DNA of 43,433 nt, taken from the NCBI GenBank assembly GCA_013388985.1, contig JACAEF010000026.1, forward strand, positions 1 through 43,433, in the 5' to 3' direction. The notes beneath the pieces were generated by a model that worked only from the letters and a program-made list of their open reading frames with translations, did no database searches and was not told the origin of the DNA. This document shows, piece after piece, positions 2,052 to 43,433 of this stretch; the first letter of the stretch is position 1, and each line of letters opens with the position of its first letter. Source of the stretch: Rhodocyclaceae bacterium (GTDB taxonomy: Bacteria; Pseudomonadota; Gammaproteobacteria; Burkholderiales; Rhodocyclaceae). The translations under genes and the position numbers were made by a program.

Positions 2052-2079
2052 GGGTGCCGTTCCGTCAGCGCCGACTTTT
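2052..2079 (+). repeat. Dispersed palindromic element, core copy A
   Basis: Single core copy (GGGTGCCGTTCCGTCAGCGC followed by CGACTTTT) filling almost the whole 35-bp gap between two convergent genes. The minus-strand TGA of the PilZ-like gene (2079-2081) overlaps the T-rich end. It differs from the commonest form by C-to-T changes in the CCCGCC block. Confidence 0.8.
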
Positions 2080-3743
2080 CATTCAACCTCGACGCAGCGA
2101 ACGCGCTCGAAATCCGCACCGCGTTCGATCAGTTCCTCGAGCCGGAAGCGGCGGGCCACGGGCGGTGTCCTGACTTCCATGATGCGTCCCGCCTTGAAGC
2201 TGCCGAGCGGCAGGATCAGCGAAACGGGCTGCCGCGCCGCCTCTACTGCCGGCAGGATGAACCCTGGCCGGTACGGGTCCGGCGTCGCCATCACGCCGGT
2301 GCGCCGCACGGCCACGGCTTCCGGCCGTCCCGGCATCAGCTGGATGCCCGTGGCCAGATCGTTGCCCCGCTGCTGCGTCCAACGCACCACGCCGAGCAAG
2401 AAGCCGCCGCTGCTCGCCGGCTGCACCGCGACCAACTGGCCGATGGCGAGCCGCCCGCCTTCGCGTTCGATCGGGCGTGTCAGGCATAAGCCGGCCTCGG
2501 AGCGATCGAACATCCCCCAGTCCTCGGCGAGCGTCCAGCTTTCGGTCTGGAAGCCCAGCTCGCGGCTGGTTTCCTCCGCGAAGCCGGCAGGTCCGCCGTC
2601 GAACATCGCCATCGTTTCGCGCTGCCGCCGCAGCGCCTCGTCCGAAAGACTCCCGGACGGCCGAAACGGCTGGCGGCCCGAAACGTAATAGTGGATCGCA
2701 TCGACCCCGGCCACGAAGCGGCATTGGCCGCTCAGCGGATGGCGCGCATGGCGGCGCTGCACCCCGCCTTTGACCCAGCGCGGATAGAGCCCTCGCAGCA
2801 CCTCGGCGCAGGACGGCAGCGTGCAATCCTCGCCCAGTCCCAGACTGGCCGGCGTCACGGCCGGATCCTGCCGCGCCAGCAGCACGAGGCGCTTCATCAT
2901 GCTCTTTTGCAGTGCCCCGGTATCCAGCCAGCGCGCGCCCGGGCCCTCGTAAGGCAGGAAACGGGGCGGCGCATCGCCGGCGAGGTCGACGCACAGCGGT
3001 AGCGCGTCGCCCAAAGGCGGCGCAGCGGCCAGCACCTTCACCTTCGCCGACCAGCGTCGCGCCCAGCGCATCACCCAGCGCTGCTGCCGTGGCGCCAGCT
3101 CATGCAGGCTCGCCATCGCCAGTAACGCCAGCTCGACATAGGCCATCGCCGGAGAAACGGCCTGCGCACCGTTCTCCCCGCGCGCTGGATCGGCGACGGC
3201 TACCTGCGTCACACCCAAGGTTTCGGCGCTGGCATACACCCGATGCGCGAACCGCCATGTCTTGCTGTCCGCCTGCCAGCCACCGCGCATCAGATCGGCG
3301 AAATCGTCGGCCAGGATCGCCAGGGCGCGCTCGCAGACGAGGGCCGCCCTGGGTCGCAGATCCGCATCGCCCCCCGTCAGGCTTTGCAGGCAGCGCAGAT
3401 AGCCCATCAACAAAGCCTGCCAGAGCGCATGTGTCGTCTCGAGCGCCGCCTGTTCGATCGGGGCCAGCGGCATCGGCTTGCCGGCGAAGAGCGGCGCGTT
3501 TTCCTGCTGCACGAAGCGCACGGGCGTCTGCAGGGCTTCGAGCAGCTCCAGCCGGCGCGTGGCGGGAAGCGAATAGGCATCGAGCAGGCGCAACTCGTCG
3601 AGCAGCGCCTTTTGCGCCAGCGGCGGATTCATCATCGGCAAGCGGGCGATCCACTCACGGCAGGCCGCCGGGTCGATGCAATGCGGCGCGTGCACGGTAC
3701 CGGTCGGCGGCAGGCCGGACGCAGGGGGCTTGGTCGGACTCAT
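2079..3743 (-). CDS. PilZ-like c-di-GMP receptor candidate
   Basis: Protein of 554 residues with no clear signal peptide, so probably cytoplasmic. The N-terminal two-thirds is helical and unrecognised. The C-terminal part resembles a PilZ domain: RRHARHP near residue 330 fits the RxxxR arm, and DRSEAG near residue 415 fits the [D/N]xSxxG motif, with about 80 residues between them, longer than in a compact PilZ domain. The ATG at 3743 is chosen because it overlaps the HIT gene stop in an ATGA (3740-3743), indicating translational coupling; the open frame continues upstream but only through the HIT gene. It converges on a GGDEF-EAL gene, which fits a c-di-GMP effector role. The binding function is inferred; the motifs are seen. 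Confidence 0.7.
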   Translation of the reverse strand: MSPTKPPASGLPPTGTVHAPHCIDPAACREWIARLPMMNPPLAQKALLDELRLLDAYSLPATRRLELLEALQTPVRFVQQENAPLFAGKPMPLAPIEQAALETTHALWQALLMGYLRCLQSLTGGDADLRPRAALVCERALAILADDFADLMRGGWQADSKTWRFAHRVYASAETLGVTQVAVADPARGENGAQAVSPAMAYVELALLAMASLHELAPRQQRWVMRWARRWSAKVKVLAAAPPLGDALPLCVDLAGDAPPRFLPYEGPGARWLDTGALQKSMMKRLVLLARQDPAVTPASLGLGEDCTLPSCAEVLRGLYPRWVKGGVQRRHARHPLSGQCRFVAGVDAIHYYVSGRQPFRPSGSLSDEALRRQRETMAMFDGGPAGFAEETSRELGFQTESWTLAEDWGMFDRSEAGLCLTRPIEREGGRLAIGQLVAVQPASSGGFLLGVVRWTQQRGNDLATGIQLMPGRPEAVAVRRTGVMATPDPYRPGFILPAVEAARQPVSLILPLGSFKAGRIMEVRTPPVARRFRLEELIERGADFERVRCVEVE

Positions 3744-4165
3744 GCCGCGCTTTCCAGTGCCCGCAGCAGGGCGGCGGTCAGCGCCGCGCTCGAAGGTCGG
3801 GCCCTTTCGGGAACCGCCCGGCAAGCCGGCGCCCAGATCGGCGCGGGAAAATGGCTGTCGTCCCGCCAGCGCGGAATCACGTGCCAATGCAGATGCGGCA
3901 CGAGGTTGCCGAGACTGGCGAGATTGATCTTGTCTGGATGCATGACCACTCGCACCGCCGTTTCGACGGCATGCACCACGGAGAGCAGATGTCGGCGTTC
4001 CGCCACCGCCAGATCGCTCATCTCGGCGACATGGGCATGCCAGATGACGCGGCAGAAGCCAGGAAAGGCGCTGCCCTCCACCCCTCCGACTCGGATGACG
4101 CGGCAGCGCTCATCCTGCCACAGGAGTTCTCCGCCAGGGGTATCGCACAGTTCGCAGGCGCTCAT
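3740..4165 (-). CDS. HIT family nucleotide hydrolase/transferase
   Basis: Protein of 141 residues of the histidine triad superfamily, acting on the alpha-phosphate of nucleotides such as dinucleoside polyphosphates or AMP conjugates. The signature HLHWHVIPR at residues 91-99 gives the alternating histidines (H91, H93, H95). Two N-terminal cysteines (CELC) may bind zinc, as in some HIT proteins. The gene is the first of a two-gene unit, its stop overlapping the start of the PilZ-like gene by 4 bp. The physiological substrate is unknown. Confidence 0.85.
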   Translation of the reverse strand: MSACELCDTPGGELLWQDERCRVIRVGGVEGSAFPGFCRVIWHAHVAEMSDLAVAERRHLLSVVHAVETAVRVVMHPDKINLASLGNLVPHLHWHVIPRWRDDSHFPAPIWAPACRAVPERARPSSAALTAALLRALESAA

Positions 4166-4376
4166 GATGTCAATCCAGATTATCCGTCAGACCGGATGAC
4201 GAGGATGCGGGGTCGGAAAGCCGTCAACATTCCGGCTTACGCTCGTGTTCCGATGGCTGGCCCGGACTCAAGATAACACAGCTGCCTGCCGGGCCGGTCT
4301 CGTATTGCCCATACTGCTTCGAGTATGATCTTCCCGACATGCGTTTTCCTTCCCTTGATCCCTCACGGAGCGGGCA

Positions 4377-11048: not shown

Positions 11049-14000
11049 TTACAGGAGCACCCGCTCGATGCCGCCCGCGTTGGCGGCATCGACGTAGCGT
11101 TCGAGCCAGTCCGCGCCGAGGATGTGGCGCGCGAGCTCGACGACGATGTAGTCGGCCTCGAGCGGCGCATCCTCGCGATAGCGCGCCAGTCCCTGCAGGC
11201 AGCTCGGGCAGCTGGTGAGGATCTTCGTCGTCGCCGGTGCCGTCTCACCAGCGCCGAGTTTCGCGATGCCGGCGATGATCTCTTCCTGCTTGCGGAAACG
11301 CACCTGCGTCGCCACGTCGGGGCGCGTCACGGCCAGCGTGCCGGATTCGCCGCAACAGCGGTCGTTGAGATCGACGCGCTGGCCGAGCAGCCGGTTGGCT
11401 ACCTGCGTGCCGTTGTAGATCTTCATCGGCGTGTGGCAGGGCTCGTGATACATGTAGCGCGTGCCAGGCACGCCTTCGAGCCGCACCCCTTTCTCCATCA
11501 GATACTCGTGGATGTCGATCAGCCGGCAGCCGGGGAAGATCTTGTCGAACTGGTAGGTTTCGAGCTGGTCGAGACAGGTGCCGCAGCTGACGATCACGGT
11601 CCTGATGTCGAGGTAGTTGAGCGTGTTGGCGACGCGATGGAACAGCACGCGGTTTTGCGTCGTGATCATCGTGCCCTTGTCTTCTTCGCCGGCCGAGGTC
11701 TGCGGATAGCCGCAGCACAGATAGCCCGGCGGCAGCACGATCGTCGCCCCGACATGCCAGAGCATCGCCTGCGTCGCGAGCCCGACCTGGGAAAACAAAC
11801 GCTCCGAGCCGCAGCCCGGGAAGTAGAACACCGCCTCGCCATCCTCGGCCGCCCGCTGCGGATCGCGGATCACCGGAATGATCCTCGCATCCTCGATGTC
11901 GAGCAGGGCGCGCGCCGTGCGGCGCGGCACGTTCGCCGGCAGCGGCTTGTTGAGGAAATGGATCACCTGCGCCTTGACCTCCGGCCGGCCGAGCGAGGCG
12001 GGCGGGTGACGCACCGTCTCCTGCGTCAGACCGAACATCTTCGCCACGGCATGTCCCAGCCGCTGGGCCTTGTAACCGAGATCGATCATGCCGCTCTTGA
12101 GCAGCCGGATGCGCGCCGGATCGGTGGCGGAGAGGAACGCCATCGCCAGTTTCGTGCCGGGCGAGGTCTTCTTCTTGCCGGCGCGGCGCAGGAAATTGCG
12201 CATCGCGATCGAGACGTCGCCGAAGTCGATATCGACCGGGCAGGGCTTCAGACAGCGATGACAGACCGTGCAGTGGTCGGCGACATCGCCGAATTCCTCG
12301 AAGTGCTTGAGCGAAATGCCGCGCCGCGTCTGTTCCTCGTAGAGAAAGGCCTCGACCAGCAGGCCGACGCCGAGGATCTTGTTACGCGGGCTGTAGAGCA
12401 GGTTGGCGCGCGGCACGTGGGTCGAACACACGGGCTTGCACTTGCCGCAGCGCAGGCAGTCCTTGACCATGTCCGCGATCCGCCCGATCTCGGACTGCTC
12501 CATGATCAGCGATTCGACGCCGAGCAGCGCGAACGACGGCGTATAGGCGTTGGCGAGGTTCGCGCCGGGCATGAGCTTGCCCTTGTTGAAATGTCCCTGT
12601 GGATCGATGCGGTGCTTGTAAGCGCGGAAGGGCGCAAGTTCCGCGTCGGAAAGGTAATCGAGCTTGGTGATGCCGATGCCATGCTCGCCGGAAATCACCC
12701 CGCCGAGACTCTTCGCCAGCGCCATGATGCGGTCGACGGTCTGGTAGGCCGTCTGCAGCATCGCGTAATTGTCGGAGTTGACCGGGATGTTGGTATGCAC
12801 GTTGCCGTCGCCGGCATGCATGTGCAGGGCGATGAACAGGCGGCCGCGCAGCACTTCCTGGTGGATCGCCTCGATGCGCGCGCGCGTCGGCCCGTAGGCG
12901 TCGCCGGCGAAGATTTCCTCGAGCAGCGGCTTGAGCTCGCTCTTCCAGGAGACGCGCAGGTGGTGATCCTGCAGCGCCGGGAAATGCGTGTCGAGATCGT
13001 CGAGCAATCCCTGCCAGCGCGCCCGCACCTCGGCCACCGCGGCGAGCGCCAGCTCGCGCCGCTCGCCGATCAGCGCACGGCCGGAAAGCCCCGCGTCGCC
13101 GACATGCAGCGGCAGATCGCCGCGGAGGAATTCGCTCAGCGCGTCGCACAGCGCGAGCTTGTTGGCGATCGACAGCTCGATGTTCAGCCGGTCGATGCCG
13201 TCGCAATAATCGCCCATGCGCGGCAGGGGAATGACGACGTCCTCGTTGATCTTGAAGGCGTTGGTATGACGCGAGATCGCCGCGGTGCGCGCGCGGTCGA
13301 GCCAGAACTGCTTGCGTGCTTCCGCCGTCACCGCGATGAAGCCTTCGCCGCCGCGCCGGTTGGCCATCTTCACCACTTCCGAGGTGGCGCGCATCACGGC
13401 CGCCTCGTCTTCGCCGACGATGTCGCCGATCAGCACCATCTTCGGCCGGCCGTGACGCTTCGCCTTGGTCGCATAGCCGACCGCCTTCACATAACGTTCG
13501 TCCAGATGCTCGAGGCCGGCCAGCTGCACCCCGGCCGCGAGCCCCGCGCCGCCGGGCTTGAAATAGTCGGTGATCTCGACGATGGCAGGCACCGCGTCCG
13601 CGACCCGCCCGAAGAATTCGAGGCAGACGGTGCGCTGCACGGGTGGCATCTTGTGCAGGATCCATACCGCCGAGGTGATCAGCCCGTCGCAGCCTTCTTT
13701 CTGCACCCCCGGCAGCCCGGCGAGGAACTTGTCGGTGACGTCCTTGCCGAGTCCCGTCTTGCGGAAGCTGGCACCCGGAATCTCCAGCATCTCCTCGCGC
13801 ACGACGCTGCCGTCGTCGGCGAAATGGCGGACGCGGAAGGTCGCCGTCTGCTGGTCGTGGATCTTGCCCAGATTGTGGTTGAGGCGCTCGACCTCGAGCC
13901 AGCGACCCTCGGTATCCACCATGCGCCACGAGGCGAGGTTGTCGAGCGCCGTGCCCCAGAGCACGGCCTTCTTGCCGCCGGCGTTCATCGCGATGTTGCC

Positions 14001-14819
14001 GCCGATGCAGGACGCATCGGCCGAGGTCGGATCGCAGGCGAACACCAGGCCGGCCTCCTCGGCGCGTTCCATGACGCGGCGCGTGACCACGCCGGCGCCG
14101 GTGCGGATCGTCGCATAGGGGCGGTCGAGCCCCGGCAGCACCGTCTCGACCACCTCACCAATGTCGATCAGCTTTTCGGTGTTGATCACCGCCGAGCGCG
14201 GATCGAGCGGGATCGCCCCGCCGGTGTAGCCCGTGCCGCCGCCACGCGGAATGATGGTCAGCCCCAGCTCGATGCAGCCGCGCACCAGCGGGGCGATTTC
14301 TTCCTCGCTGTCGGGCGTGAGCACGACGAACGGATATTCGACGCGCCAGTCGGTCGCGTCGGTGACGTGCGAGACGCGCGAGAGACCGTCGAAACAGATG
14401 TTGTCGCGGCGCGTGTGACGGGAGAGCCGCTCTCTGACCTTCTTGCGCAACGCCGCCGTTTCGTCGAACCACTGGGCGAAATCCGCCACCGCCTTTTCGG
14501 CCGCGGCCAGCAGCCGCGCCACGGCCGCGTTGCCCTGGCGGCGTTTCTCGATCTCGGCGAGACGGTGCCGGAGCGCGCCGATCAAGGCCGCGCGCCGCTC
14601 GCGGCTCGCCAGCAGATCGTCTTCGAGATAGGGATTGCGCCGCACCACCCAGATGTCACCGAGCACCTCGTAGAGCATGCGCGCGGAACGGCCGGTGACG
14701 CGCTGGCTGCGCAGCTCGTCGAGGATCGCCCACATGTCCGCGCCGAGCAGGCGGATGACGATCTCGCGGTCGGAAAACGAGGTGGTGTTGTAGGGAATTT
14801 CCCGGAGGCGGGCGGTCAT
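11049..14819 (-). CDS. DUF3683-FAD oxidase-ferredoxin-CCG fusion oxidoreductase
   Basis: Very large protein of 1256 residues combining the parts of a D-lactate/glycolate dehydrogenase. An N-terminal DUF3683-like domain (about 1-130) precedes a PCMH-type FAD-binding domain with [11 protein letters not shown] at 191-201 and an FAD-oxidase C domain to about 740. Two 4Fe-4S motifs follow ([11 protein letters not shown] near 787, [12 protein letters not shown] near 849). Two cysteine-rich CCG regions follow (GCGSERLF near 1000; CHEP-like and RCCGESG near 1125-1165). It probably oxidises a 2-hydroxyacid and passes electrons to quinone or another carrier; the substrate is unknown. Near residue 1190 the peptide KLGAGETAP is encoded by a repeat core (11236-11261) in a linker before LTSCPSC. 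It follows yqaA by 42 bp. Confidence 0.92.
11236..11261 (+). repeat. Dispersed element, core copy D inside the DUF3683 oxidoreductase
   Basis: Core copy GGTGCCGTCTCACCAGCGCC then GAGTTT. On the minus strand it is read in frame as KLGAGETAP, the same reading frame used in yqaA, mltA and birA. The more diverged CTCACC block suggests an old or coding-adapted copy. Confidence 0.6.
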
Positions 14820-14861: not shown

Positions 14862-15338
14862 TCAACTGCTCGCCGCCCACAGCAGCACGGCATAACGCGC
14901 GCCCTTGCCGAACGCCATCCAGAACATCGAAGACAACCAGGGGAGGCGCAGCCAGCCGGCGGCGCCGCAGAGCACGTCGCCAACCAGCGGTGCCCAGGCG
15001 AACAGCAGCAGCGGCGCGCCGTGGCGCTCCAGCCAGGCGATCGCCCGTGCCGTCCCGCCAGCGCCGACTTTTCGAGACGAGACGGCGCCCGGCGGGACGA
15101 CCTCGTTCCCGCCAGCGCCGACTTTTGCCGGCAGCCAGCGCCCCAAGGCATAGGTGGTCATGCCCCCCAGCGTGTTGCCCAGCGTCGCCAGTATCAGCGC
15201 CGCTGTGGCTTGTTCGGGACGAGCGAGCACGACGGCGAGGAACGCCGCTTCGGAGCCGCCCGGCAACAGCGTCGCGGCCAGGAAACTGGCGAGCAGCAGG
15301 CCGGCGAGGCTCGCCTCGGGAGTGAAGAGAAACGCCAT
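14862..15338 (-). CDS. yqaA: YqaA family membrane protein carrying an in-frame repeat insertion
   Basis: Small DedA-like inner-membrane protein of 158 residues related to E. coli YqaA (about 142 residues, unknown function). Shared landmarks are ATLLPGGSE, LGNTLGGMTTYALGR, the hydrophobic WAPLVGDVLCGAAGW and the C-terminal GKGARYAVLL. Between LGRWLP and IAWLERHG, residues 72-97 (KVGAGGNEVVPP.. to ..KVGAGGTA) are encoded wholly by the dispersed repeat. As I recall E. coli YqaA, about 10 residues occupy this loop against about 29 here, so the excess of 18-19 residues matches one 54-bp unit. Reading frame and downstream membrane segments are preserved. It diverges from ilvA by 46 bp; an upstream in-frame ATG at 15362 is less likely. 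Confidence 0.85.
   Translation of the reverse strand: MAFLFTPEASLAGLLLASFLAATLLPGGSEAAFLAVVLARPEQATAALILATLGNTLGGMTTYALGRWLPAKVGAGGNEVVPPGAVSSRKVGAGGTARAIAWLERHGAPLLLFAWAPLVGDVLCGAAGWLRLPWLSSMFWMAFGKGARYAVLLWAASS
15047..15126 (+). repeat. Dispersed element, full 54-bp unit plus core (copy B) inside yqaA
   Basis: Two cores 54 bp apart (CCAG at 15058 and 15112). The arms CGTCCCGCC (15051-15059) and GGCGGGACG (15091-15099) can form a 9-bp stem. Minus-strand reading gives KVGAGGNEVVPPGAVSSR followed by KVGAGGTA. Confidence 0.9.
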
Positions 15339-15384
15339 GCCCCATGTTACCCTTGCGGGCACTCATCATTTCCCCGCACGCATC

Positions 15385-24453: not shown

Positions 24454-24587
24454 GGGTGCCGTCCCGCCAGCGCCGACTTTCCGAGGTGAGGCGGCGCCCG
24501 GCGGGACGCTCTCATTTCCGCCAGCGCCGACTTTCCGAGGTGAGGCGGCGCCCGGCGGGACGCTCTCATTTCCGCCAGCGCCGATTT
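24454..24587 (+). repeat. Dispersed element, tandem array (copy C) after amtB
   Basis: Three cores in two perfect tandem 54-bp units fill the gap between dsbC and amtB. Palindromic arms CGTCCCGCC (24460-24468) and GGCGGGACG (24500-24508) can pair. The last core (CGATTTT) abuts the minus-strand TGA of amtB (24588-24590). In the minus frame used by other copies it would read KVGAGGNESVPPGAASPR repeats, but that frame is not amtB's. Confidence 0.92.
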
Positions 24588-25793
24588 TCACCACAGCGTC
24601 TCGCGCTCGGCGCTGGCCGATACCTTGTGGATGGTCAGATCGGCGCCGTTGAACTCTTCTTCGGCATCGAGTCGGATGCCGACCGTGGCCTTCAATCCGC
24701 CATAGACGGCAAGTCCGCCGACGAACGCGATCAGCACGCCCAGCAGCGTGCCGACGAGCTGGCTCATGAAGGCCACGCCGCCTAGGCCGCCGAGCGCCTC
24801 GCTGCCAAAGATTCCCGCGGCGATGCCGCCCCACGCGCCGCATAGTCCGTGCAGCGGCCAGACGCCGAGCACGTCGTCGATCTTCCAGCGGTTCTGGGTG
24901 ATCGTGAACATCACGACGAACAAGCCGCCGGCGAGGCCGCCCGTCACCAGCGCGCCGAGCGGATGCATCAGGTCCGAGCCTGCACAGACGGCCACCAGCC
25001 CGGCGAGCGGGCCGTTGTGCGCGAAGCCTGGGTCGTTCTTGCCCATCACGAGGGCGACGAGGGTGCCGCCGACCATCGCCAGCAACGAATTCATTGCCAC
25101 CAGGCCGGAAATCTTTTCCAAGGTCTGTGCGCTCATCACGTTGAAGCCGAACCAGCCGACGATCAGGATCCAGGCGCCCAGCGCCAGAAACGGGATCGAC
25201 GACGGCGGATGCCCGCCGGCGATGCCGCCGTCCTTGTGGTAACGGCCGCGCCGCGCGCCGAGCATCAACACCGCCGCAAGGCCGATCCAGCCACCGACGG
25301 CATGCACCACCACCGAGCCGGCGAAGTCGTGGAATTCCGCGCCGAAGGTAGCCGCAAGCCAGGCCTGGATGCCGAAGGCCTGGTTCCAGGCGATGCCTTC
25401 GAAGAACGGATAGACGAAGCCGACGAGCAGGAAGGTGGCGGCGAGCTGCGGATGGAATTTCGCCCGTTCGGCGATGCCGCCGGAGACGATGGCCGGGATC
25501 GCGGCGGCAAAAGTGAGCAGGAAGAAGAACTTGACGAGGTCATAGCCGTTTTTCGCCATCAACGTCCCGGCGCCGGAAAAGAAATGCACGCCATAGGCGA
25601 TGCCATAGCCGATGAAGAAGTAAGCGAGGGTGGAGACCGAAAAATCGGCCAGGATCTTGACCAGCGCATTGACCTGGTTCTTGCGACGCACGGTGCCGAG
25701 CTCCAGAAAGGCGAAGCCCGCGTGCATCGCCAGGATCATGATCGCGCCGAGCAGGATGAACAGCACGTCGGCGGAAGTCTTGAATTGCTCCAT
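24588..25793 (-). CDS. amtB: Ammonium transporter AmtB
   Basis: Inner-membrane ammonium channel of 401 residues with eleven or so hydrophobic segments. Family landmarks: N-terminal MHAGFAFLELG without a signal peptide, FHDFAGSVVVHAVGG carrying the conserved Asp and first pore His, WFGFNVMSA, and PLHGLCGAWGG with the second pore His. Usually glnK precedes amtB; here the upstream same-strand gene is a diguanylate cyclase and no PII gene is seen. A sigma54-type promoter and one NtrC-like box precede it, predicting induction in nitrogen limitation. Its TGA is immediately followed by a repeat array. Confidence 0.96.
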   Translation of the reverse strand: MEQFKTSADVLFILLGAIMILAMHAGFAFLELGTVRRKNQVNALVKILADFSVSTLAYFFIGYGIAYGVHFFSGAGTLMAKNGYDLVKFFFLLTFAAAIPAIVSGGIAERAKFHPQLAATFLLVGFVYPFFEGIAWNQAFGIQAWLAATFGAEFHDFAGSVVVHAVGGWIGLAAVLMLGARRGRYHKDGGIAGGHPPSSIPFLALGAWILIVGWFGFNVMSAQTLEKISGLVAMNSLLAMVGGTLVALVMGKNDPGFAHNGPLAGLVAVCAGSDLMHPLGALVTGGLAGGLFVVMFTITQNRWKIDDVLGVWPLHGLCGAWGGIAAGIFGSEALGGLGGVAFMSQLVGTLLGVLIAFVGGLAVYGGLKATVGIRLDAEEEFNGADLTIHKVSASAERETLW

Positions 25794-27854: not shown

Positions 27855-29069
27855 TCAAGGCGTGTGCCAGCGGGGCAACAGCACCCACAGGCTTCCCTGC
27901 TGCCGCATCCTCCCAGCGAACTCCCCTGCTTCGGCGCCGCTGCCCCAGTAAAAGTCGGCCCTCACCGGGCCCCGGATCGCCCCGCCGGTATCCTGTGCGA
28001 GCATCAGCCGGGTGAGCGCCTCTCCGCCGTTCGGCCGGGTCGTCGCGAGCCAGACCGGCGCGCCCAGCGGAATGAAACGCGGATCGACGGCGAGACTGCG
28101 CTGCGGCGTCAGCGGCACGCCCAAGGCCCCGGGAGGGCCGCTGCCTTCCACCGGCAGCTCCCGAAAGAAGACCAGGCTCGGATTGACGTCGAGCAGTTCT
28201 TTCAGCCGCTGTGGATTGCGTTCGGCCCAGGCGCGGATGCCCTGCATCGAGGCTTCGTGCACCTGCAGTTCGCCGCGCTCGATCAGCCACTTGCCGATCG
28301 AACGGTACGGATGGCCATTCTGGTCGGCATAGCCGATGCGGATGCGGCGGCCATCGTCCAGTTCGACCTGGCCGGAGCCCTGGATCTGCAGGAAGAAGAA
28401 TGCGATCGGATCGTCCGTCCACAGCAACGCCCGATCGGCGCGGCGCGCTTCTTCGGCGGCCCATTCGGCGCGGCTATAGTAGGGCACCAGCCGCCGGCCT
28501 TCGAGACGGCCGCGCAACCGCAGGTTCTTGAGTTCGGGATAGAGGCCGGCGAGATCGACGACGATCAGATCGTCCGGCGGACCGAACACCGGAGTCAGAT
28601 ACGGTGGCTTTCGCGTGCGGCTGCCGCGGATCACGGGTTCGTAATAGCCGGTGACGAGCCCTTCACGCTGCCCGTCTGGATTGACGAGCTGCCAGGGGCG
28701 GAAATTTTCCTCGAACCATGCTTTCGCGGCGCCGGGTGCCGTCCCACCAGCGCCGACTTTCCGCAACGAGTCGACGCCCGGTGGGACGCTCTCATTGTCA
28801 CCAGCGCCGACTTTCTGGGCCGACTCACAGGTCGACAGCCACAAGGGCCGTTTGGCGAGCAGGGCGCATTGCGCCTTGAAGAGCTCCAGCACGCTGGCAT
28901 GATCCTCGTTATCCCAGCCCGGCAGATCGGCCCAGCTCGCCGGCTGGAGCGGCTTGACGGCCGGCCTGGGCGCTTCGACCGAAGGACAGGGCGGACAGGC
29001 GGGCGGCACCGCCGCGCAGCCGGCCAGGGCGAGAATCAAGGCAGAGAGTGCTAAATTGCGTTTCTTCAT
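27855..29069 (-). CDS. mltA: Membrane-bound lytic murein transglycosylase A with in-frame repeat insertion
   Basis: Outer-membrane lipoprotein of 404 residues cleaving peptidoglycan with formation of 1,6-anhydro ends. The lipobox LALAGC gives the lipidated C18. MltA landmarks include LVTGYYEPVIRGS, FFLQIQGSGQV and the 3D-like end LMLAQDTGGAIRGPVRADFYWG with the catalytic Asp. Residues 86-112 (KVGAGDNESVPP.. to ..KVGAGGTAP) are encoded by a full repeat unit inserted between CESAQ and AAKAWFEENF, before the catalytic core. Frame is kept and the rest of the protein looks normal, so the insertion seems tolerated. The gene diverges from the DUF815 ATPase with only 17 bp between starts. Confidence 0.93.
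   Translation of the reverse strand: MKKRNLALSALILALAGCAAVPPACPPCPSVEAPRPAVKPLQPASWADLPGWDNEDHASVLELFKAQCALLAKRPLWLSTCESAQKVGAGDNESVPPGVDSLRKVGAGGTAPGAAKAWFEENFRPWQLVNPDGQREGLVTGYYEPVIRGSRTRKPPYLTPVFGPPDDLIVVDLAGLYPELKNLRLRGRLEGRRLVPYYSRAEWAAEEARRADRALLWTDDPIAFFFLQIQGSGQVELDDGRRIRIGYADQNGHPYRSIGKWLIERGELQVHEASMQGIRAWAERNPQRLKELLDVNPSLVFFRELPVEGSGPPGALGVPLTPQRSLAVDPRFIPLGAPVWLATTRPNGGEALTRLMLAQDTGGAIRGPVRADFYWGSGAEAGEFAGRMRQQGSLWVLLPRWHTP
28734..28814 (+). repeat. Dispersed element, full 54-bp unit plus core (copy E) inside mltA
   Basis: Cores at 28747 and 28801 are 54 bp apart. Left arm CGTCCCACC (28740-28748) and right arm GGTGGGACG (28780-28788) both differ from copies B and C at the position that pairs, keeping the 9-bp stem. 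Confidence 0.9.
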
Positions 29070-29086: not shown

Positions 29087-29932
29087 ATGCAAGGTCTCGA
29101 ATCGTTGATCACCCGCCTCGAAGCGCTCGTCGCGCGCGCCGAGGCGCTGCTGCCCACCCCGCCCGCGCCGCCCGACTGGAGCGCCATCGCCTACCGCTGG
29201 CGCGGCCGTCTGGAGCCGGTGCATCATCCGCACCGCATCCGGCTCGCCGACCTGAAAGGCGTCGATGAACAGAAGGCGGCGATCGAACGCAACACGCGCC
29301 AGTTCGTCGCCGGCCGGCCCGCCAACAACGTGCTGCTCACCGGCGCGCGCGGCACCGGCAAGTCCTCGCTGGTCAAAGGCGTGCTCGACAAGTTCGCGAA
29401 AAAGGGCCTGCGCCTGATCGAGGTCGACCGCGACGACCTCGTCGATCTGCCGCAGATCATCGACCTCGTCGCCGACCGGCCCGAGCGCTTCATCGTGTTT
29501 TGCGACGATCTCTCCTTCGAGGCGTCCGAACCCGGCTACAAGGCGCTCAAAAGCGCGCTGGACGGCTCGATCGCCGGCGCGCCGGAGAACCTCTTGATCT
29601 ACGCGACCTCGAACCGCCGCCACCTGATGCCCGAGCGGATGAGCGAGAACCTCGAAGTCACGCGCGGCGCGGAAGGCGAAATCCACCCCGGCGAGACCAC
29701 CGAGGAAAAGATCTCGCTCTCCGAGCGCTTCGGCCTGTGGCTGTCGTTCTATCCGTTCGACCAGGATCACTATCTCGACATCTGCGTGCACTGGCTGCGA
29801 CAGTTCGGCGTCGATGAAAACTCGGCGCTCGCGGCACGGCAGGAGGCGCTGCAATGGGCCCTGCAACGCGGCTCGCGCTCCGGCCGGGTGGCCTGGCAGT
29901 TCGCGCGGGATTACGCGGGCCGGCTGAAGTGA
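29087..29932 (+). CDS. DUF815-type AAA ATPase
   Basis: Cytoplasmic P-loop ATPase of 281 residues. Walker A is GARGTGKSS (86-94) and Walker B FIVFCDDLSFE (about 130-140); sensor-like YATSNRRHLMPERM follows. This order matches the DUF815 family of small AAA proteins, whose role is not defined. ATG 29087 has GGAAG upstream and gives MQGLESL, a helical N-terminus. The stop overlaps the next gene's GTG start (29929-29932), so it is coupled to the Nudix-ThiE gene. Confidence 0.9.
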   Translation: MQGLESLITRLEALVARAEALLPTPPAPPDWSAIAYRWRGRLEPVHHPHRIRLADLKGVDEQKAAIERNTRQFVAGRPANNVLLTGARGTGKSSLVKGVLDKFAKKGLRLIEVDRDDLVDLPQIIDLVADRPERFIVFCDDLSFEASEPGYKALKSALDGSIAGAPENLLIYATSNRRHLMPERMSENLEVTRGAEGEIHPGETTEEKISLSERFGLWLSFYPFDQDHYLDICVHWLRQFGVDENSALAARQEALQWALQRGSRSGRVAWQFARDYAGRLK

Positions 29933-31877: not shown

Positions 31878-32507
31878 TCATGGGGTTCGCGCCGATTCCT
31901 CACGAAGTTTCGCCAGGGTGCGGTATTTTTCGTGCAGGTGGGCGACCTGGGCGTCGAGTTCGGCCAGCCCCTGCGAGTTGTCGATCACGTCATCCGCGGC
32001 GGCGAGACGCTGGGCCCGGCTCGCCTGCGCGGCGAGGATCGCCAGCACCTCGTCGCGCGACAGGCCGCTCCTGGCCATCACCCGGGCGAGCTGGAGTGCT
32101 TCGGGGCAATCGACGACGCAGACGCGGTCGACACGCGAGCGGTAGTCACCCGTTTCGACCAGCAGCGGCACGACGAGGACCGCATAGTCGGCGCTGGCGA
32201 GACGGCACAACCGCGCCTCGCTCTCGGCGCGGATCAGCGGATGCAAGATGGCTTCGAGCCGCTCTCGCGCCGCCGCATCGGCGAAGACGAGGCGGCGCAT
32301 CGCGGCCCGGTCGAGCGCACTCTCGGCGGTCAGCAGCGCATCACCGAAAGCCAAGCGGATCGGTTCGATCGCCGCGCCACCCGGCGCGGTCAGTTCGTGC
32401 GCGATCGCATCGGTATCGACGATCGCGGCGCCGCGCGCCGCGAAACGCTCGGCGGCCGCGCTCTTGCCGCTGCCGATGCCGCCCGTCAGGCCGACGACGA
32501 AGGGCAT
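31878..32507 (-). CDS. coaE: Dephospho-CoA kinase
   Basis: Last enzyme of coenzyme A synthesis, phosphorylating the ribose 3'-OH of dephospho-CoA. The 209 residues open with the P-loop GLTGGIGSGKS, then DTDAIAHELTAPGG, and keep VVPLLVETG and the lid-type RSGLSRDEV. A stretch inside CRLASADYAVLVVPLL (32186-32208) is nearly identical to the dispersed-repeat core, though the protein needs no insertion there. Notably coaX, earlier in the same run, encodes the first pathway step. Confidence 0.95.
   Translation of the reverse strand: MPFVVGLTGGIGSGKSAAAERFAARGAAIVDTDAIAHELTAPGGAAIEPIRLAFGDALLTAESALDRAAMRRLVFADAAARERLEAILHPLIRAESEARLCRLASADYAVLVVPLLVETGDYRSRVDRVCVVDCPEALQLARVMARSGLSRDEVLAILAAQASRAQRLAAADDVIDNSQGLAELDAQVAHLHEKYRTLAKLREESARTP
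32186..32208 (-). repeat. Borderline repeat-core match inside coaE
   Basis: AGTCGGCGCTGGCGAGACGG then CAC differs from the core complement at one base. The encoded CRLASADY aligns with the normal CoaE family sequence, so this may be chance, an ancestor of the core, or a fully adapted copy. Confidence 0.35.
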
Positions 32508-34085: not shown

Positions 34086-34802
34086 CTAGCAAAACATCGT
34101 GCGCGCGAGTCCTTCGAGCACGAGATTGTCGATGCGCATGAGCGGCAGCTCGATGTGGGGTGCGAGCAAATCGGCGGCGCCGCCCGAAAGCAGCACGCAA
34201 AAGTCGGCGCTGACGGGACGGCACGCCCGCGCCGCCATGCGCTCGATCGCGCCGAGCGTCGCCATCAGGATGCCGCTCTCGATCGCATCGTCGGTATTGG
34301 TCGGCAGGTCGCGATAGGTGCCGCTCGCTTGGGGCAGCCCCGCCGTGTTGCGGGCGAGCGCCTGGCGCATCAGATCGAGTCCGGGCAGGATCAGCCCGCC
34401 ACGGAAACGGCCTGCGGCATCGAGCACGTCGATCGTCGTCGCGGTACCGGCCATCACGACCAGCGCGGGACCGGCATGCCAGCCCCGCGCGCCGATCAGC
34501 GCCGCCCAGCGGTCGGCGCCAAGCCGCGCCGGATCATCGTAGGCATTGATCACGCCACAACACGCTGCGGTGCTCCTGAACCATTCGAGCGGCACGCCGA
34601 GCTTGGCCGCGAGCGTTTCGATCCGCTGCGCCATCACGCTGCCGGCGACGTTGCAGGCGAGGATGCGCTCGATGCCTGCCGGCAATCTCCCGGCCAGGCC
34701 CACGCATTCGGCATGGGCGCAGGCGCCCTGCGCGCGCCAGGCCGCGCCTTCCCTCACGCCCCACTTCAAGCGCGTGTTGCCGGCGTCGAGACAGAGGATC
34801 AT
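34086..34802 (-). CDS. coaX: Type III pantothenate kinase
   Basis: Cytoplasmic ATP-dependent kinase for the first step of CoA synthesis, of the ASKHA fold and 238 residues. Motifs: LDAGNTRLKWG (phosphate loop with D6), GADRWAALIGARG, VVMAGTATTIDVLD and the C-terminal LLSGGAADLL. Residues CRPVSADF just before LLSGG are encoded by a repeat core (34199-34224) read on the opposite strand of the element from birA and mltA. It overlaps birA by ATGA (34799-34802), a common betaproteobacterial pairing. Confidence 0.95.
   Translation of the reverse strand: MILCLDAGNTRLKWGVREGAAWRAQGACAHAECVGLAGRLPAGIERILACNVAGSVMAQRIETLAAKLGVPLEWFRSTAACCGVINAYDDPARLGADRWAALIGARGWHAGPALVVMAGTATTIDVLDAAGRFRGGLILPGLDLMRQALARNTAGLPQASGTYRDLPTNTDDAIESGILMATLGAIERMAARACRPVSADFCVLLSGGAADLLAPHIELPLMRIDNLVLEGLARTMFC
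34199..34224 (-). repeat. Dispersed element, core copy F inside coaX
   Basis: Core in reverse orientation (AAAAGTCGGCGCTGACGGGA then CGGCAC). It is translated in coaX as CRPVSADF, showing that either strand of the element can be read through in frame. Confidence 0.8.
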
Positions 34803-35575
34803 GCCGCGCCTCGCAGGGAGACTTCGCCGGAGAGGATGCGCTCGATATCGCCGGCCGTTTCCAGCAGCAAGGCGCCCGTTTCATCGACGCCGCGGCAGAT
34901 GCCTTCGCGCGGCGGCGCGAAGTCCGACAGCAGCCGCACCGGCGCATCCTGAAACGCATGTCGGGCCAGCCACGCCTCGCGCAAGGCACGAAAACCCTGC
35001 GTGCCGAAGATTTCCAGCGTCGCCCGCAGCTCCACGAGGAGCGCGGCGAGCAGGACATTGGGATCGATCGCGGCATCGAGCGCGGCGCTGTGCGCGCGCA
35101 CTTCGTCCGGCAGCGCGGCGGGCAGGCGGAGATTCAGGCCGATGCCGATCACCGCGGCATGCGGCGCGCCCGGCACCAGCTCGACGAGGATGCCGGCGAG
35201 CTTCCTGCCGCCTTTCAGCACGTCGTTCGGCCATTTCAATTCGACGGGTGCCGTCCCGTCAGCGCCGACTTTCACCAACGCCTCGCTCACCGCCACGCCG
35301 GCGGCGAGCGAGAGGCCGAGCGGCAGCGTCCCGGGAGCGAAGCGCCACAGCAGCGAAAACGTCAGGCTGTCGCCGGGTGCCGAGTGCCAGGTGCGGCCAC
35401 GACGGCCGCGGCCGGCCGTCTGCGTCTCGGCGATCAGCACCGAGCCCGACGGCGCGCCGTTTTCGGCGCGGGCGAGCAACAGCGCGTTGGTCGAGGCGCA
35501 TTCCGGCAGCAGCTCGGCATCGAAGCGGCAGGCGTCGGCGCCCAGGGCCTGGGCGATGGCGGTCAAATCGAACAT
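34799..35575 (-). CDS. birA: Biotin-[acetyl-CoA-carboxylase] ligase (no DNA-binding domain)
   Basis: Biotin protein ligase of 258 residues that activates biotin with ATP and attaches it to acetyl-CoA carboxylase. Motifs: CASTNALLLARA, the biotinyl-AMP loop GRGRRGRTWHSAPGDSL, KWPNDVL and GRKLAGILVEL. The N-terminal repressor HTH of E. coli BirA is absent, so it is probably not a transcriptional regulator. Residues 102-110 (KVGADGTAP), just before VELKWPND, are encoded by a repeat core. It begins the run birA > coaX > trpB2 > coaE > zapD > yacG. Confidence 0.94.
   Translation of the reverse strand: MFDLTAIAQALGADACRFDAELLPECASTNALLLARAENGAPSGSVLIAETQTAGRGRRGRTWHSAPGDSLTFSLLWRFAPGTLPLGLSLAAGVAVSEALVKVGADGTAPVELKWPNDVLKGGRKLAGILVELVPGAPHAAVIGIGLNLRLPAALPDEVRAHSAALDAAIDPNVLLAALLVELRATLEIFGTQGFRALREAWLARHAFQDAPVRLLSDFAPPREGICRGVDETGALLLETAGDIERILSGEVSLRGAA
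35246..35272 (+). repeat. Dispersed element, core copy G inside birA
   Basis: Core GGGTGCCGTCCCGTCAGCGC then CGACTTT, read on the minus strand as KVGADGTAP. E. coli BirA has KLGAD at the equivalent site, so part of the encoded peptide coincides with the ancestral sequence and only a few residues are extra. Confidence 0.75.
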
Positions 35576-35700: not shown

Positions 35701-36375
35701 ATGAAACGCACGCTGATGATGACGATTCTGGCCGCAACGACGCTTGCCGGTTGCGCCGTCTATCCCGAACGCGACCCCTATTACGACCCGCCGATCGTGC
35801 GCGTCGCCCCGCCGCCGCCGCTGGTCGAAGTCGTCGGCCCGCCGCCGGTGGTCGGCTATGTCTGGATCGGCGGCTACTGGAACTGGGTGGGCACCCGCTA
35901 CGTCTGGGTGCCGGGCCGCTGGGAGGCGCCCCGTCCGGGTTACATCTGGGTGCCGCATCGCTGGGAACGGCATGGCGAAGGCTGGCGGATTTCCGGCGGC
36001 CGCTGGGAACGCGCGGAGGCGCCCAGAATCGTCGTCCCGCCCGCGCCGCCGCCCCATATCGAACATCGCCCGCCGCCAGCACCCGTGCCGCCCCCGCCGC
36101 GCGTCGAGCCCCGGCCGTTCCCCGGCGCCATGCCTCCCCCTCCGGAGCGTCGGGAACCGCCGCGCATCGAGCCTGAGAGCCGCCGGCCGATGGACGTCGA
36201 TCCCGCCCGCTTTCCGGAACGCCGCGCCGAGCCGCCCCGCGCCGAGCCGCCCCGCGCCGAGCCACCACGCGGGGAGCGCGACAGCCGCGGCCGCGAGGAC
36301 AGACGGGACGAGCGGCGCGACGATCGCCGCTGGCGCGACCGCGATGGCGACGGGCGCCCGGACGCCCCGCGGTGA
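35701..36375 (+). CDS. YXWGXW-repeat lipoprotein with Pro/Arg-rich tail
   Basis: Predicted lipoprotein of 224 residues: signal MKRTLMMTILAATTLAGC with lipobox LAGC (C18). Aromatic repeats of the YXWGXW type follow (YVWIGGYWNWVG, YVWVPGRWEAP, YIWVPHRWERH, WRISGGRWERA). The remainder is proline- and arginine-rich, including a threefold RAEPP repeat (about 36220-36264) and a highly charged end (RRDERRDDRRWRDRDGDG). Function is unknown; likely envelope surface or periplasmic structure. A GGGGGAAGAG site precedes ATG 35701. Its TGA directly abuts the convergent ntrC stop with no gap. Confidence 0.88.
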   Translation: MKRTLMMTILAATTLAGCAVYPERDPYYDPPIVRVAPPPPLVEVVGPPPVVGYVWIGGYWNWVGTRYVWVPGRWEAPRPGYIWVPHRWERHGEGWRISGGRWERAEAPRIVVPPAPPPHIEHRPPPAPVPPPPRVEPRPFPGAMPPPPERREPPRIEPESRRPMDVDPARFPERRAEPPRAEPPRAEPPRGERDSRGREDRRDERRDDRRWRDRDGDGRPDAPR

Positions 36376-41129: not shown

Positions 41130-41146
41130 CGCACCAATCTGGGGCA
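41130..41146. promoter_or_regulatory. NtrC-box-like site 1 upstream of glnA
   Basis: CGCACC, 5 bp, GGGGCA; 10 of 12 positions match the TGCACC-N5-GGTGCA dyad. Centre about 98 bp upstream of the predicted start. Confidence 0.6.
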
Positions 41147-41159
41147 ATATGAAGTTTTT

Positions 41160-41176
41160 TGCACCATTCTGGTGCG
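41160..41176. promoter_or_regulatory. NtrC-box-like site 2 upstream of glnA
   Basis: TGCACC, 5 bp, GGTGCG; 11 of 12 positions match. It lies 30 bp (about three helix turns) from site 1 and ends 2 bp before the CDF gene's stop, resembling the paired enhancers of E. coli glnA. Confidence 0.75.
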
Positions 41177-41177
41177 A

Positions 41178-42098
41178 TCATAGACTCATGCTGTCGTTTT
41201 CCGGATCGAGGTGGATCAGGACCTCGACGACTTCCGGATGGGCCGCGAGGACGCGCTTGCGGGCCGCCTCGCCGATCGCGTGGCCTTCGCGCACGCTGAT
41301 GTCGCCATCGACCTGCAGATGCACATCGACGAAGACGCGATGCGCCATGCGCCGTGTGCGCAGCTCATGGAGATCCTCGACGCCCGGCGTCGACAGCAGC
41401 GTGGCGCGGATCGCCGCGACCTCCTCGGCCGGCAGGCCGGTGTCGATCAGCTCCTGCATCGCTTCCCAGGCGAAGCCGAGGCCGGCCTTGACGATCATCG
41501 CGCCGACGACGATCGCGGCCACCGCGTCGGCAAAGGTAAAACCGAGCAGCGCCCCGCCCACCCCGGCGGCGACCACCAGCGAGGAGAGCGCGTCGGCGCG
41601 CGCATGCCAGGCATTGGCGATCAGCATCGGCGAGCGCAGCCGCTCGGCCACCTTGAGCATGTAGCGGAACAGCCCTTCCTTGCCGATCAGCGTGATGATC
41701 GCCGCCCACATCGCGGCGATTCCCACCGGCGGCAGCGCACCGAGGTTCTGCAGCCGCCCGGCCGCCGAGACGAGGATGCCGGCGCCGGTGATCGTCAGCA
41801 ACAGGCCCAGCACCAATGAGGCGGCCGTCTCGAAGCGGCCGTGGCCATACGGGTGCTCTTCGTCGGCGCCCTGCGATCCTTTGTGGTTGGCCCACAGCAC
41901 GAAGGCGTCCGAGACGATGTCGGAGAGCGTGTGCATCGCGTCGGCGACCAGCGCCATCGAATGCGCGGCGAAGCCGACGATCACCTGCATCACCGTCAGC
42001 ACGACATTGACGACGACGCTGACCCAGGTGATGCGCTGGCCGGCCTGGTAGCGCTCGGGGTCGACCGGCCCGTTGGAAGTAGGTGTCGGGGCAGCCAA
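41178..42098 (-). CDS. Cation diffusion facilitator family metal transporter
   Basis: Inner-membrane divalent-cation/proton antiporter of 306 residues with about six membrane segments and a C-terminal cytoplasmic metal-binding domain (about 215-306). Metal-site motifs are DAMHTLSD in helix II and HARADALSS in helix V, the HxxxD pair typical of zinc-type CDF proteins; the loop HPYGHGRFE is also characteristic. The start is probably TTG 42098, since an in-frame TAA lies two codons upstream and no ATG or GTG precedes the first helix. It is divergent from nadA, 45 bp away. Confidence 0.88.
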   Translation of the reverse strand: MAAPTPTSNGPVDPERYQAGQRITWVSVVVNVVLTVMQVIVGFAAHSMALVADAMHTLSDIVSDAFVLWANHKGSQGADEEHPYGHGRFETAASLVLGLLLTITGAGILVSAAGRLQNLGALPPVGIAAMWAAIITLIGKEGLFRYMLKVAERLRSPMLIANAWHARADALSSLVVAAGVGGALLGFTFADAVAAIVVGAMIVKAGLGFAWEAMQELIDTGLPAEEVAAIRATLLSTPGVEDLHELRTRRMAHRVFVDVHLQVDGDISVREGHAIGEAARKRVLAAHPEVVEVLIHLDPENDSMSL

Positions 42099-42143
42099 AC
42101 GTTATACTCGGCAAGTAAGGAAACGCTCCCGATTCTACCTTTC
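42099..42143 (+). promoter_or_regulatory. Possible nadA promoter region
   Basis: TATACT at 42103-42108 could be a -10 box 36 bp before the nadA ATG. No convincing -35 element is seen at 17 bp, so this is tentative. A TAAGGAAA purine run follows at 42117-42124. Confidence 0.25.
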
Positions 42144-43241
42144 ATGCAAACCGCCCCGATCGACTTCGCAGCCTTCAACGCGCTCTCCGACCGCGACGCG
42201 CAGGCGCGCATCTCCGCCGCGCGCGAGCGGCTCGGCTCCCGCGCCGTGATCCTCTGCCATCACTACCAGCGCGCCGACGTCTATGCCCATGCCGATCTCA
42301 CCGGCGATTCCCTGAAGCTCTCGCGGCTGGCTTCCCAGTCCGACGCCGAGTTCATCGTCTTCTGCGGCGTGCATTTCATGGCCGAGGTGGCCGACATCCT
42401 CTCGCGGCCGGAACAGATCTCGATCCTGCCCGATCTCGCCGCCGGCTGCTCGATGGCCGACATGGCCAACCGCGCGAAGGTGGAACGCTGCTGGCGCGAG
42501 CTCTCGACCGTCTTCGACCCCGACGCGACGATCACGCCCGTCACCTACATCAACTCCTCGGCCGATCTGAAGGCCTTCTGCGGCGAGCACGGCGGCATCG
42601 TGTGCACCTCTTCGAACGCGCCGAAGATCCTCGATTGGTCGTTCGCGCGCCGCGAGAAGGTGCTGTTCTTCCCCGACCAGCACCTCGGCCGCTGGAGCGG
42701 TTACAAGATGGGCATTCCGCTCGAACGCATGGTGCTGTGGAACCCCGACCTGCCGCTGGGCGGGCTCACCCCCGAAGAGATCCGTGAGGCAAAGATCATT
42801 CTCTGGCACGGCTACTGCTCGGTGCATCAGATGTTCAATCCCGGCCAGATCAAGCGCTTCCGCGAGAAACATCCGGACGGCAAGGTGATCTCCCACCCGG
42901 AATGCAGCTTCGAGGTCTGCGCCCAGTCCGACGCGGTCGGCTCGACGGAAACCATCATCCGCGTCGTCAAGGAATCGCCGCCGGGCACGCGCTGGCTGGT
43001 CGGCACCGAGCTCAACCTCGTCGAGCGGCTGGCGGAAGAAGTGAAGGCGGAAAGCAAGATCGTCCAGTTCATGGCCGACATGGTCTGCATGTGCTCGACG
43101 ATGCAGCGCATCGACCCGCAGCATCTGGCCTGGACGCTGGAAAACCTCGCCGCCGGCAACGTCGTCAATCCGATCAAGGTGCCGGAGCACGAGGCGAAGC
43201 TGGCGAAAATCGCCCTGGAGCGAATGCTCGACGCCTCCTGA
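42144..43241 (+). CDS. nadA: Quinolinate synthase A
   Basis: 4Fe-4S enzyme of 365 residues condensing iminoaspartate with dihydroxyacetone phosphate to quinolinate in NAD synthesis. Expected features are seen: ILCHHYQRADVYAHADLTGDSL, the first cluster cysteine in FCGVHFMAEVADIL, the second in SHPECSFEVCAQSD, the third in VCMCSTMQRI. ATG 42144 begins MQTAPIDFAAF; the frame runs further upstream but only antisense to the CDF gene. nadB and nadC are not in the window. Confidence 0.96.
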   Translation: MQTAPIDFAAFNALSDRDAQARISAARERLGSRAVILCHHYQRADVYAHADLTGDSLKLSRLASQSDAEFIVFCGVHFMAEVADILSRPEQISILPDLAAGCSMADMANRAKVERCWRELSTVFDPDATITPVTYINSSADLKAFCGEHGGIVCTSSNAPKILDWSFARREKVLFFPDQHLGRWSGYKMGIPLERMVLWNPDLPLGGLTPEEIREAKIILWHGYCSVHQMFNPGQIKRFREKHPDGKVISHPECSFEVCAQSDAVGSTETIIRVVKESPPGTRWLVGTELNLVERLAEEVKAESKIVQFMADMVCMCSTMQRIDPQHLAWTLENLAAGNVVNPIKVPEHEAKLAKIALERMLDAS

Positions 43242-43433
43242 CCCACCCTCCCCCAGCCCCTCCCTCGCGGGAGGGGAGACTGATTGCGCGCAAGCGCGCC
43301 AGTAACGAAACTCGGCGCTGGCGGGACGGCACCTAGGGCCTGTTCTCAATCATCCGGCGGATGGCGTTGCTGGCCGGAAAGGGATGGATGCAAGGCGGAG
43401 GGCGAAGCCAAGGGCGCCTCCCCTTGGCAAGCC
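43242..43433. other. Window-end intergenic DNA with palindromes
   Basis: No gene is recognised. Contents: palindrome CCCCTCCC-TCGC-GGGAGGGG (43257-43276) without a T-tract, a GCGCGC-AA-GCGCGC dyad near 43286-43299, repeat core H, CATCCG-G-CGGATG (43351-43363), and hairpin GCCAAGGG-CGCCTC-CCCTTGGC (43407-43428). The cluster of palindromes may be the edge of an insertion element beyond the window. Confidence 0.5.
43308..43333 (-). repeat. Dispersed element, core copy H after nadA
   Basis: Reverse-orientation core AAACTCGGCGCTGGCGGGAC then GGCACC, 67 bp after the nadA stop. It shares the CTC variant with copy D. Confidence 0.8.

Follow-up and report, generated by a model that had tools for sequence, protein, structure and literature searches.

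What kind of element is the short sequence that recurs on both strands of this stretch of a Rhodocyclaceae genome and lies within conserved genes without breaking their reading frames? The stretch, hereafter the window, comprises the 43,433 nucleotides of contig JACAEF010000026.1 (assembly GCA_013388985.1). An earlier note, made from the sequence of the window alone, had described a dispersed palindromic element with a larger unit of 54 bp and had likened it to the Rickettsia palindromic elements (RPE). We find that the abundant unit is an asymmetric 25-bp motif, which we call the core, and that the 54-bp composite is a minor derivative of the abundant single core. Judged by analogy, we slightly favor the reading that the core is an uptake-signal-like sequence, comparable to the DNA uptake sequences (DUS) and uptake signal sequences (USS) of other bacteria, in betaproteobacteria near Sulfuritalea.

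The core motif and its constraint at the DNA level

The core was defined from 88 single copies, gathered at up to four mismatches in a 443-kb sample of the window's genome (G000; other genomes are likewise given by handle). Its consensus, GTGCCGTNYCRYCAGCGCCGANTTT, is asymmetric and sharp-edged: the 25 positions hold approximately 42 bits of information (the sum of the listed values), and the flanks hold at most 0.35 bit per position. When the whole G000 assembly (2,896,965 bases, or about 2.9 Mb, in 156 contigs) was scanned at up to three mismatches, the core was found in 510 places, 242 forward and 268 reverse, so it is not an element of few copies; the reversed 25-mer was found in none on either strand. 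The density of the core is approximately one per 4-6 kb. In the 443-kb sample, copies at zero to five mismatches to the degenerate consensus number 59, 19, 12, 3, 8 and 10, compared to 0, 0, 0, 1, 0 and 1 for the reversed consensus, and both patterns give 14 at six mismatches. The core is a maintained motif rather than a smoothly decaying family.

Within the window itself, a 20-mer gives 11 matches at up to three mismatches, compared to 0.06 expected from shuffles. The eight copies listed by the earlier note and the one it regarded as borderline are all present, within 1-4 bases of the starts it had given, and a tenth copy (29818-29842, minus strand) was absent from its list; matches at 3854 and 42988, with three mismatches each, were left out of our count. 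The element is indeed dispersed and in frame within conserved genes, as the note describes it, and it is very abundant.

We then compared the location of the copies with chance expectation. Among 93 cores in the 443-kb sample, 56 lie in genes, 32 are intergenic and five are at gene edges, compared to expected shares of 92.3%, 4.6% and 3.0%, respectively, which is an intergenic excess; the genes come from a codon-usage caller with a coding fraction of 0.941, and the in-gene share is therefore approximate. The in-gene cores are read in sense and antisense equally often (28 and 28), and the six reading frames hold 22, 15, 10, 3, 3 and 3 of them. Consequently varied peptides are encoded, among them KVGAGGTA, CRPASADF and KSALAGR. 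By itself the core does not fold, its energies (-0.5 and -1.0 kcal/mol) being no lower than those of shuffled sequences. These observations bear on the idea that the motif acts at the level of RNA or protein, as a processing or terminator signal or as a conserved peptide. The arrangement of the 30 of 32 intergenic copies with called genes on both sides, which is convergent in 12 cases, co-directional in 15 and divergent in three, speaks for such a role. However, the balance of sense and antisense, the use of all six frames, the several peptides and the lack of a fold make it very improbable.

Comparison of fourfold sites points to a constraint on the DNA itself. With motif sites chosen in G000 only, fourfold sites are identical between G000 and G017 at 82 of 91 positions (90%) within the motif and at 2788 of 4023 (69%) elsewhere. 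Over five genes compared in other pairs of genomes of the genus, identity is 694 of 968 at motif positions versus 18525 of 33131 elsewhere, and four of the five genes tested across the genus have a synonymous excess. Positions are conserved as well. For 30 of the 56 in-gene cores of G000, the 400 kb of G017 that was used contains no orthologue, and for six the matches do not span the site; in the 20 testable cases, the site is kept in 17, absent in two and intermediate in one. The orthologous site in the DUF815 gene holds the core (at up to four mismatches) in all eight genus genomes that span it. Together, the alignments indicate that the core is under DNA-level constraint at synonymous sites.

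The consensus also shifts from species to species. In G004 it begins NCACCGT, with A at the third position in 89% of 18 copies; in G016 it begins GCGCCGC, with C at the seventh position in 88% of 26 copies; and in G078 it ends in AGCGTCGACTTT, with the T within AGCGTCGACTTT present in 88% of 16 copies. For all three, part of the genome was sampled, and copies were accepted at up to five mismatches to the G000 consensus. The exact G078 form occurs in 89 places in G078, two in G071, one in G056 and none in the 17 other genomes searched. Species-wide shifts of this kind are explained by a reader protein that changes its specificity, and not by dead inserts.

Distribution among genomes and spacing along them

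Of the 19 genomes in the genus, 18 carry the motif, at 53 to 564 places each. Across the family (199 genomes, searched with a 23-mer at up to one mismatch, for which the reversed control gave one match in total), 21 genomes in six of the 68 sampled genera carry it in 126 to 587 places, and all other genomes have 16 or fewer. Among 300 genomes of the order, the 291 from other families have no more than four places each. Low-copy family members such as G115, G160, G088 and G089 have several of their few copies close together, and it is possible that such clusters (e.g. in G115, G160 and G088) are segments acquired from carriers. The one motif-free genome assigned to the genus, G005, has a BirA only 53% identical to that of the window, and no strongly over-represented 12-mer, and hence no other dialect, was found in 182 kb of it, partly masked. 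It may be a more distant or a secondarily motif-free lineage. In a scan of genome contigs, limited to the best 80 of 590 loci and thus possibly leaving out the window's own genome, three loci have the motif at up to two mismatches (L118 and L119, and L124 at two). No 16S sequence in the G000 assembly matched at the threshold used, and the placement of the host therefore depends on a relative. A Sulfuritalea sp. metagenome-assembled genome (JAGXSN010000207.1) encodes a BirA that is 73% identical and has the core inside birA, which probably puts the host close to Sulfuritalea, a genus that NCBI places in the Sterolibacteriaceae.

Copies are spaced more evenly than random in the best-sampled genomes. 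In 400 kb of G017, the coefficient of variation (CV) of the gaps is 0.616, compared to 0.984 for random placement, a value so low that not one of 5000 simulations reached it, and there are two gaps shorter than 600 bp where 12.4 are expected. In G000 the CV is 0.772 compared to 0.981 (P = 0.002), with five gaps below 600 bp compared to 13.2 expected, four of these being gaps within 54-bp composites; the smallest gap in the stricter set of 93 cores is 646 bp. In G002, the CV over the initial 1.77 Mb of the chromosome is 0.85 compared to 0.99 (P = 0.014). The two strands are intermixed along the same 1.77 Mb, with 79 runs compared to 88.1 ± 6.5 expected (97 and 100 positions per strand, covering 1.77 and 2.20 Mb of the 2.56-Mb contig).

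Even spacing raises the main rival to the uptake reading, namely that the core is the site of an intracellular chromosome-organizing or segregation protein that is needed every few kilobases, whose shifts in specificity give the dialects. The CVs of 0.62, 0.77 and 0.85 in G017, G000 and G002 are in keeping with such a site, as are the DNA-level constraint, the positional conservation and the species-wide consensus shifts. However, the first 1.77 Mb of G002 shows no clear polarity, and orientation within genes is equal. An asymmetric site without polarity would be unusual among organizers such as matS, parS and KOPS. Likewise, a patchy presence within the family, with six of 68 genera at high copy, would be odd for an essential organizer. 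No candidate for the protein emerged, no search aimed at one having been made. We regard this rival as unlikely.

Stretches of apparently acquired DNA give a mixed picture. In G179, an 82-kb stretch without the motif (C1:60429-142293, L284-L288) combines a prophage, represented by genes for terminase, portal, tape measure and tail, with a defence island (JetA, JetC and JetD, together with a type III restriction enzyme), and has ordinary-looking genes at its ends. At least 120 stretches in IMG/VR hold the motif exactly (L301-L380 among those listed), some of them in reading frames that look phage-like by eye. Five copies lie on one of these stretches, L323, and four of the five follow one another in regular steps of 316 bp.

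Comparison with orthologues and the 54-bp composite

The earlier note had suggested in-frame insertion into conserved proteins, for which the relevant comparison is with orthologues lacking the motif (at least seven mismatches). We used the birA neighborhood of 14 genus genomes besides the window, together with G005 and five outgroups. A spanning orthologue was available for 65 of 76 cores and none for 11; many of the 65 represent the same site in different species, so the comparisons are not independent. The core-bearing protein is within four residues of the length of its motif-lacking orthologue in 178 of 278 comparisons, 51 of which are gap-free. A gain of 8-9 residues is seen in only three comparisons and a loss of at least five residues in 26. 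Gains of at least 11 residues account for 64 comparisons and come from 10 cores, including sites in G008, G010 and G012 that have arrays or other inserts. Counted per core, one or more motif-lacking orthologues are available for 52; at 22 of these an orthologue is gap-free, at 24 one is within a residue, and at two a pure gain of 8-9 residues is apparent. When the orthologue comes from a genome with no copy of the motif, lengths agree to within four residues in 94 of 106 comparisons, most of which concern the birA and coaX sites.

At the coaX site, orthologues grade from one to 13 mismatches and several are gap-free; in CoaX of G012 (L108), extra in-frame residues lie just upstream of the core. 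At the birA site, the motif (at up to four mismatches) is present in 11 of 18 spanning orthologues, and the seven without it include G005 and the five outgroups, whose BirA has, in place of the KVGAGxTA of most carriers, an unrelated segment of similar length. Of 3105 comparisons at control positions, 2776 are gap-free, compared to the 51 of 278 at core sites, indicating that indels cluster at core sites. These alignments indicate that single cores are mostly not insertions, being mostly length-neutral, and that core sites sit in permissive, indel-rich stretches.

The in-frame inserts that do occur belong with composites and arrays. A composite consists of a full core, a spacer with a GGCGGGACG arm that pairs with the core's CGTCCCGCC, and a second, partial core. 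The GGCGGGACG-arm pattern has 24 matches in G000 at up to one mismatch, compared to five for its reversed control. When arm matches were judged in context by eye, composites were found at approximately 12 loci genome-wide, three of them in the window, which therefore over-represents them. In the 443-kb sample, single cores outnumber paired ones by 92 to four. The 54-bp unit described in the earlier note is thus real at 15047, 24456 (twice) and 28736, and minor across the genome when set against the 510 core places. The spacing is 54 bp at nine of 11 measurable loci, with 57 and 56 bp at C101 and 57 bp at C117; the composite on C25 is interrupted by the contig end and its spacing is not measurable. 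The palindromic character that the note ascribed to the element as a whole holds for this longer unit and not for the core: the window composites fold at -22.5, -22.0 and -17.8 kcal/mol (z -2.6 to -2.7), the hairpin at 15047 being the centroid and not the minimum-energy fold.

Similarly, the likeness to RPE holds for the composites and fails for the main element, whose copies are so often length-neutral. MltA of G000 has 18 residues adjoining the core that are missing from G002 MltA, so that the composite here is a genuine in-frame insert, and BirA of G007 and G008 has larger in-frame arrays at the core site; BirA of G004 has an in-frame insert there as well. The inserts at core sites in birA of G007 and G008 and in mltA of G007, G009 and G015 (L103, L104, L105 and L111) are made of a different unit, encoding peptide QADASPPVGGSEPGLRAWG and its variants, so lineages differ in their composite. 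We suggest that the 54-bp composites are hairpin inserts of secondary origin, which either include the core or use it as a target, and which persist in frame.

Could the whole family be a mobile palindromic repeat, akin to repetitive extragenic palindromes (REP), miniature inverted-repeat transposable elements (MITE) or RPE, that inserts in frame and leaves single cores as worn remnants of a 79-bp composite? The approximately 12 loci that fold into hairpins, the inserts in mltA and in birA of G007 and G008, the clustering of indels at core sites and the 64 long gains all fit such a history. However, single cores predominate, have flat flanks and form no hairpin; gains of 8-9 residues are rare, and mismatches at coaX form a graded series. 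Dead inserts would not be expected to have dialects or to be constrained at synonymous sites, and spacing in G017 and G000 is more even than random, not clustered. This origin therefore seems quite unlikely to us. The non-palindromic sequence, the several frames, the synonymous constraint and the species consensus together argue for a DNA sequence that is read by a protein, and not for a mobile insert.

The copies in the window are collected in Table 1. Host-gene names given in the earlier note were upheld by Pfam for DUF3683, MltA, CoaX and BirA, and YqaA has less to recommend it. The statement that all six frames of the core are open is true of five of the 10 window copies; in those at 2054, 11237, 32208, 34224 and 35248, one antisense frame is closed by a stop, and it is never the frame of the host gene where one exists. 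A 15-bp tandem repeat in three copies also lies in the window, at 36222-36277, and an Rfam search of the window returned a tRNA and nothing else.

Table 1. Core copies, composites and an associated gene assignment in the window.
Feature	Position	Strand	Context and basis
Core	2054-2078	+	Gap between convergent reading frames ending at 2043 (+) and 2079 (-); 0 mismatches to degenerate consensus
Core	11237-11261	+	Within DUF3683/FAD-oxidase gene (11049-14819, -); antisense reading KLGAGETA; Pfam
Composite	15047-15125	+	In frame in yqaA-like gene (14862-15362, -); full core, hairpin spacer, partial core 54 bp on
yqaA-like gene (naming)	14862-15362	-	Weak VTT-domain match only, under cut-off
Composite, two 54-bp units	24456-24588	+	Between dsbC-like gene (named by eye) and convergent amt (Pfam)
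Composite, one 54-bp unit	28736-28814	+	In frame in mltA (27855-29069, -); Pfam MltA
Core, 2 mismatches to degenerate consensus	29818-29842	-	Within DUF815 ATPase gene (Pfam)
Core, 1 mismatch	32184-32208	-	Within coaE (Pfam); sense reading LCRLASADY; borderline copy of the earlier note
Core	34200-34224	-	Within coaX (Pfam Pan_kinase); sense reading CRPVSADF
Core	35248-35272	+	Within birA (Pfam); antisense reading KVGADGTA
Core	43308-43332	-	Downstream of nadA

A candidate uptake signal compared with known systems

The properties of the core match those reported for DUS and USS, and from this set of properties we infer a signal for DNA uptake that would be read by a receptor at the pilus tip. 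A sequence-specific receptor in the DNA-uptake machinery would prefer DNA that bears the core; by analogy with neisserial ComP, it could be a type IV minor pilin. Once imported, the DNA would undergo homologous recombination, by which copies would be spread and repaired. ComEC (PF03772) was found in each of the 35 genomes in which it was sought, among them non-carriers. A receptor candidate was sought among the prepilin-like genes of G000 (17 prepilin-motif matches, 15 of them over the cut-off) and none was assigned. We found no report of the motif, or of uptake sequences in this lineage, in the open-licence PMC literature, and no named family for it there. According to the cited part of PMC12616744, no families of uptake sequences other than DUS and USS are known. 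It seems to us about as likely as not that the core represents a third uptake code for self DNA, of independent origin, whose 25-bp signal is unusually long, which has several dialects and which six or more genera of a single betaproteobacterial family share.

Several results weigh against the uptake reading. Over-even spacing fits a chromosome-structuring site as much as it fits uptake, and it is not universal: the spacing in G102 is not significantly even (CV 0.787, P = 0.09) and that in G179 is clumped (CV 2.05), the latter because of the one 82-kb gap. In G002, the plus-strand positions are mildly non-uniform (Kolmogorov-Smirnov P = 0.04). Inverted pairs are common for DUS and USS, and no core pairs within 150 bp, inverted or direct, were found among the 93 G000 cores; the density of the core, at about one per 4-6 kb, is also lower than that of the known signals. 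ComEC is equally common in non-carriers and so does not discriminate; it permits uptake and does not support it. The motif is not confined to host DNA, since IMG/VR stretches carry it. The DUF815 site has no synonymous excess (0.55 versus 0.62), with several alignment rows in wrong frames, and identity over the whole 25 bp is barely raised (0.824 versus 0.808 in control windows), an excess confined to synonymous positions being expected of DNA constraint in a permissive stretch. Inserts accompany some cores, as the 64 of 278 comparisons with a core-bearing protein at least 11 residues longer attest. Finally, 25 bp and about 42 bits exceed the uptake cores of ca. 9-12 nt described in the cited part of PMC12616744, and this greater length and constraint make a gradual build-up by point mutation harder. 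The frame stops in five of the 10 window copies, the nine 54-bp loci and the 64 long gains have no bearing on the choice between uptake and chromosome organization.

If the uptake reading is correct, a third lineage, apparently an environmental one as Sulfuritalea is, would make it possible to test independently whether drive, mate recognition or selection for genome repair gives rise to uptake codes, and would allow the co-evolution of dialects and receptors to be studied. If the core is instead a chromosome-organizing site, it would be an unusually dense and long one. Under either reading, some hundreds of genes per genome (extrapolated from the 56 of 93 sampled copies) would carry a DNA-constrained stretch, which matters for annotation and for protein evolution.

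Among known repeats, the CGTC-REPs (among them neisserial dRS3 and Rickettsia RPE-4 and RPE-6) resemble the element in being short and dispersed, with some in frame within open reading frames (PMC3733652, in part), and the hairpin stem of the composite begins at CGTC. As described in the cited part of that source, CGTC-REPs are palindromes with stems of 8-9 bp, loops of 4-5 nt (some other) and an unpaired CGTC tag, mostly arranged as head-to-head dimers and mostly intergenic. We rejected the core as a CGTC-REP, since it is not a palindrome and CGTC is paired in the composite fold. With RPE in general, the composites share in-frame residence in conserved proteins; the abundant core differs in being mostly not an insert, in not being palindromic and in carrying species dialects.

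The core is not a DUS or USS by sequence: neither the DUS 10-mer GCCGTCTGAA nor the USS 9-mers AAGTGCGGT and ACAAGCGGT occur in any of the 128 consensus expansions, on either strand. TGCCGTC is shared with AT-DUS, perhaps by chance. The core also differs from these signals in its length (25 bp, with sharp edges) and its lineage; the extended Haemophilus influenzae consensus is given as 29 bp (PMC1939737, in part). In the same source, uptake sequences of H. influenzae and Neisseria gonorrhoeae are not palindromic and show no orientation bias, and 65% and 35% of them, respectively, lie in open reading frames, with an excess in non-coding DNA; the core, too, is an abundant asymmetric motif without orientation bias, found in genes yet enriched between them. 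According to the part of PMC2397512 cited here, DUS lie approximately 1.1-1.5 kb apart, as a conserved motif at permissive positions of the core genome, with a spacing tied to conversion fragments, and are missing from recent acquisitions. Dialects are reported for DUS (PMC3630211, in part), and USS are likewise found in Pasteurellaceae phages (PMC6776037, in part). As far as these sources describe them, the core shares with DUS and USS its permissive locations, its conserved motif, its lineage dialects and, to judge by genes named by eye, its occurrence in phages.

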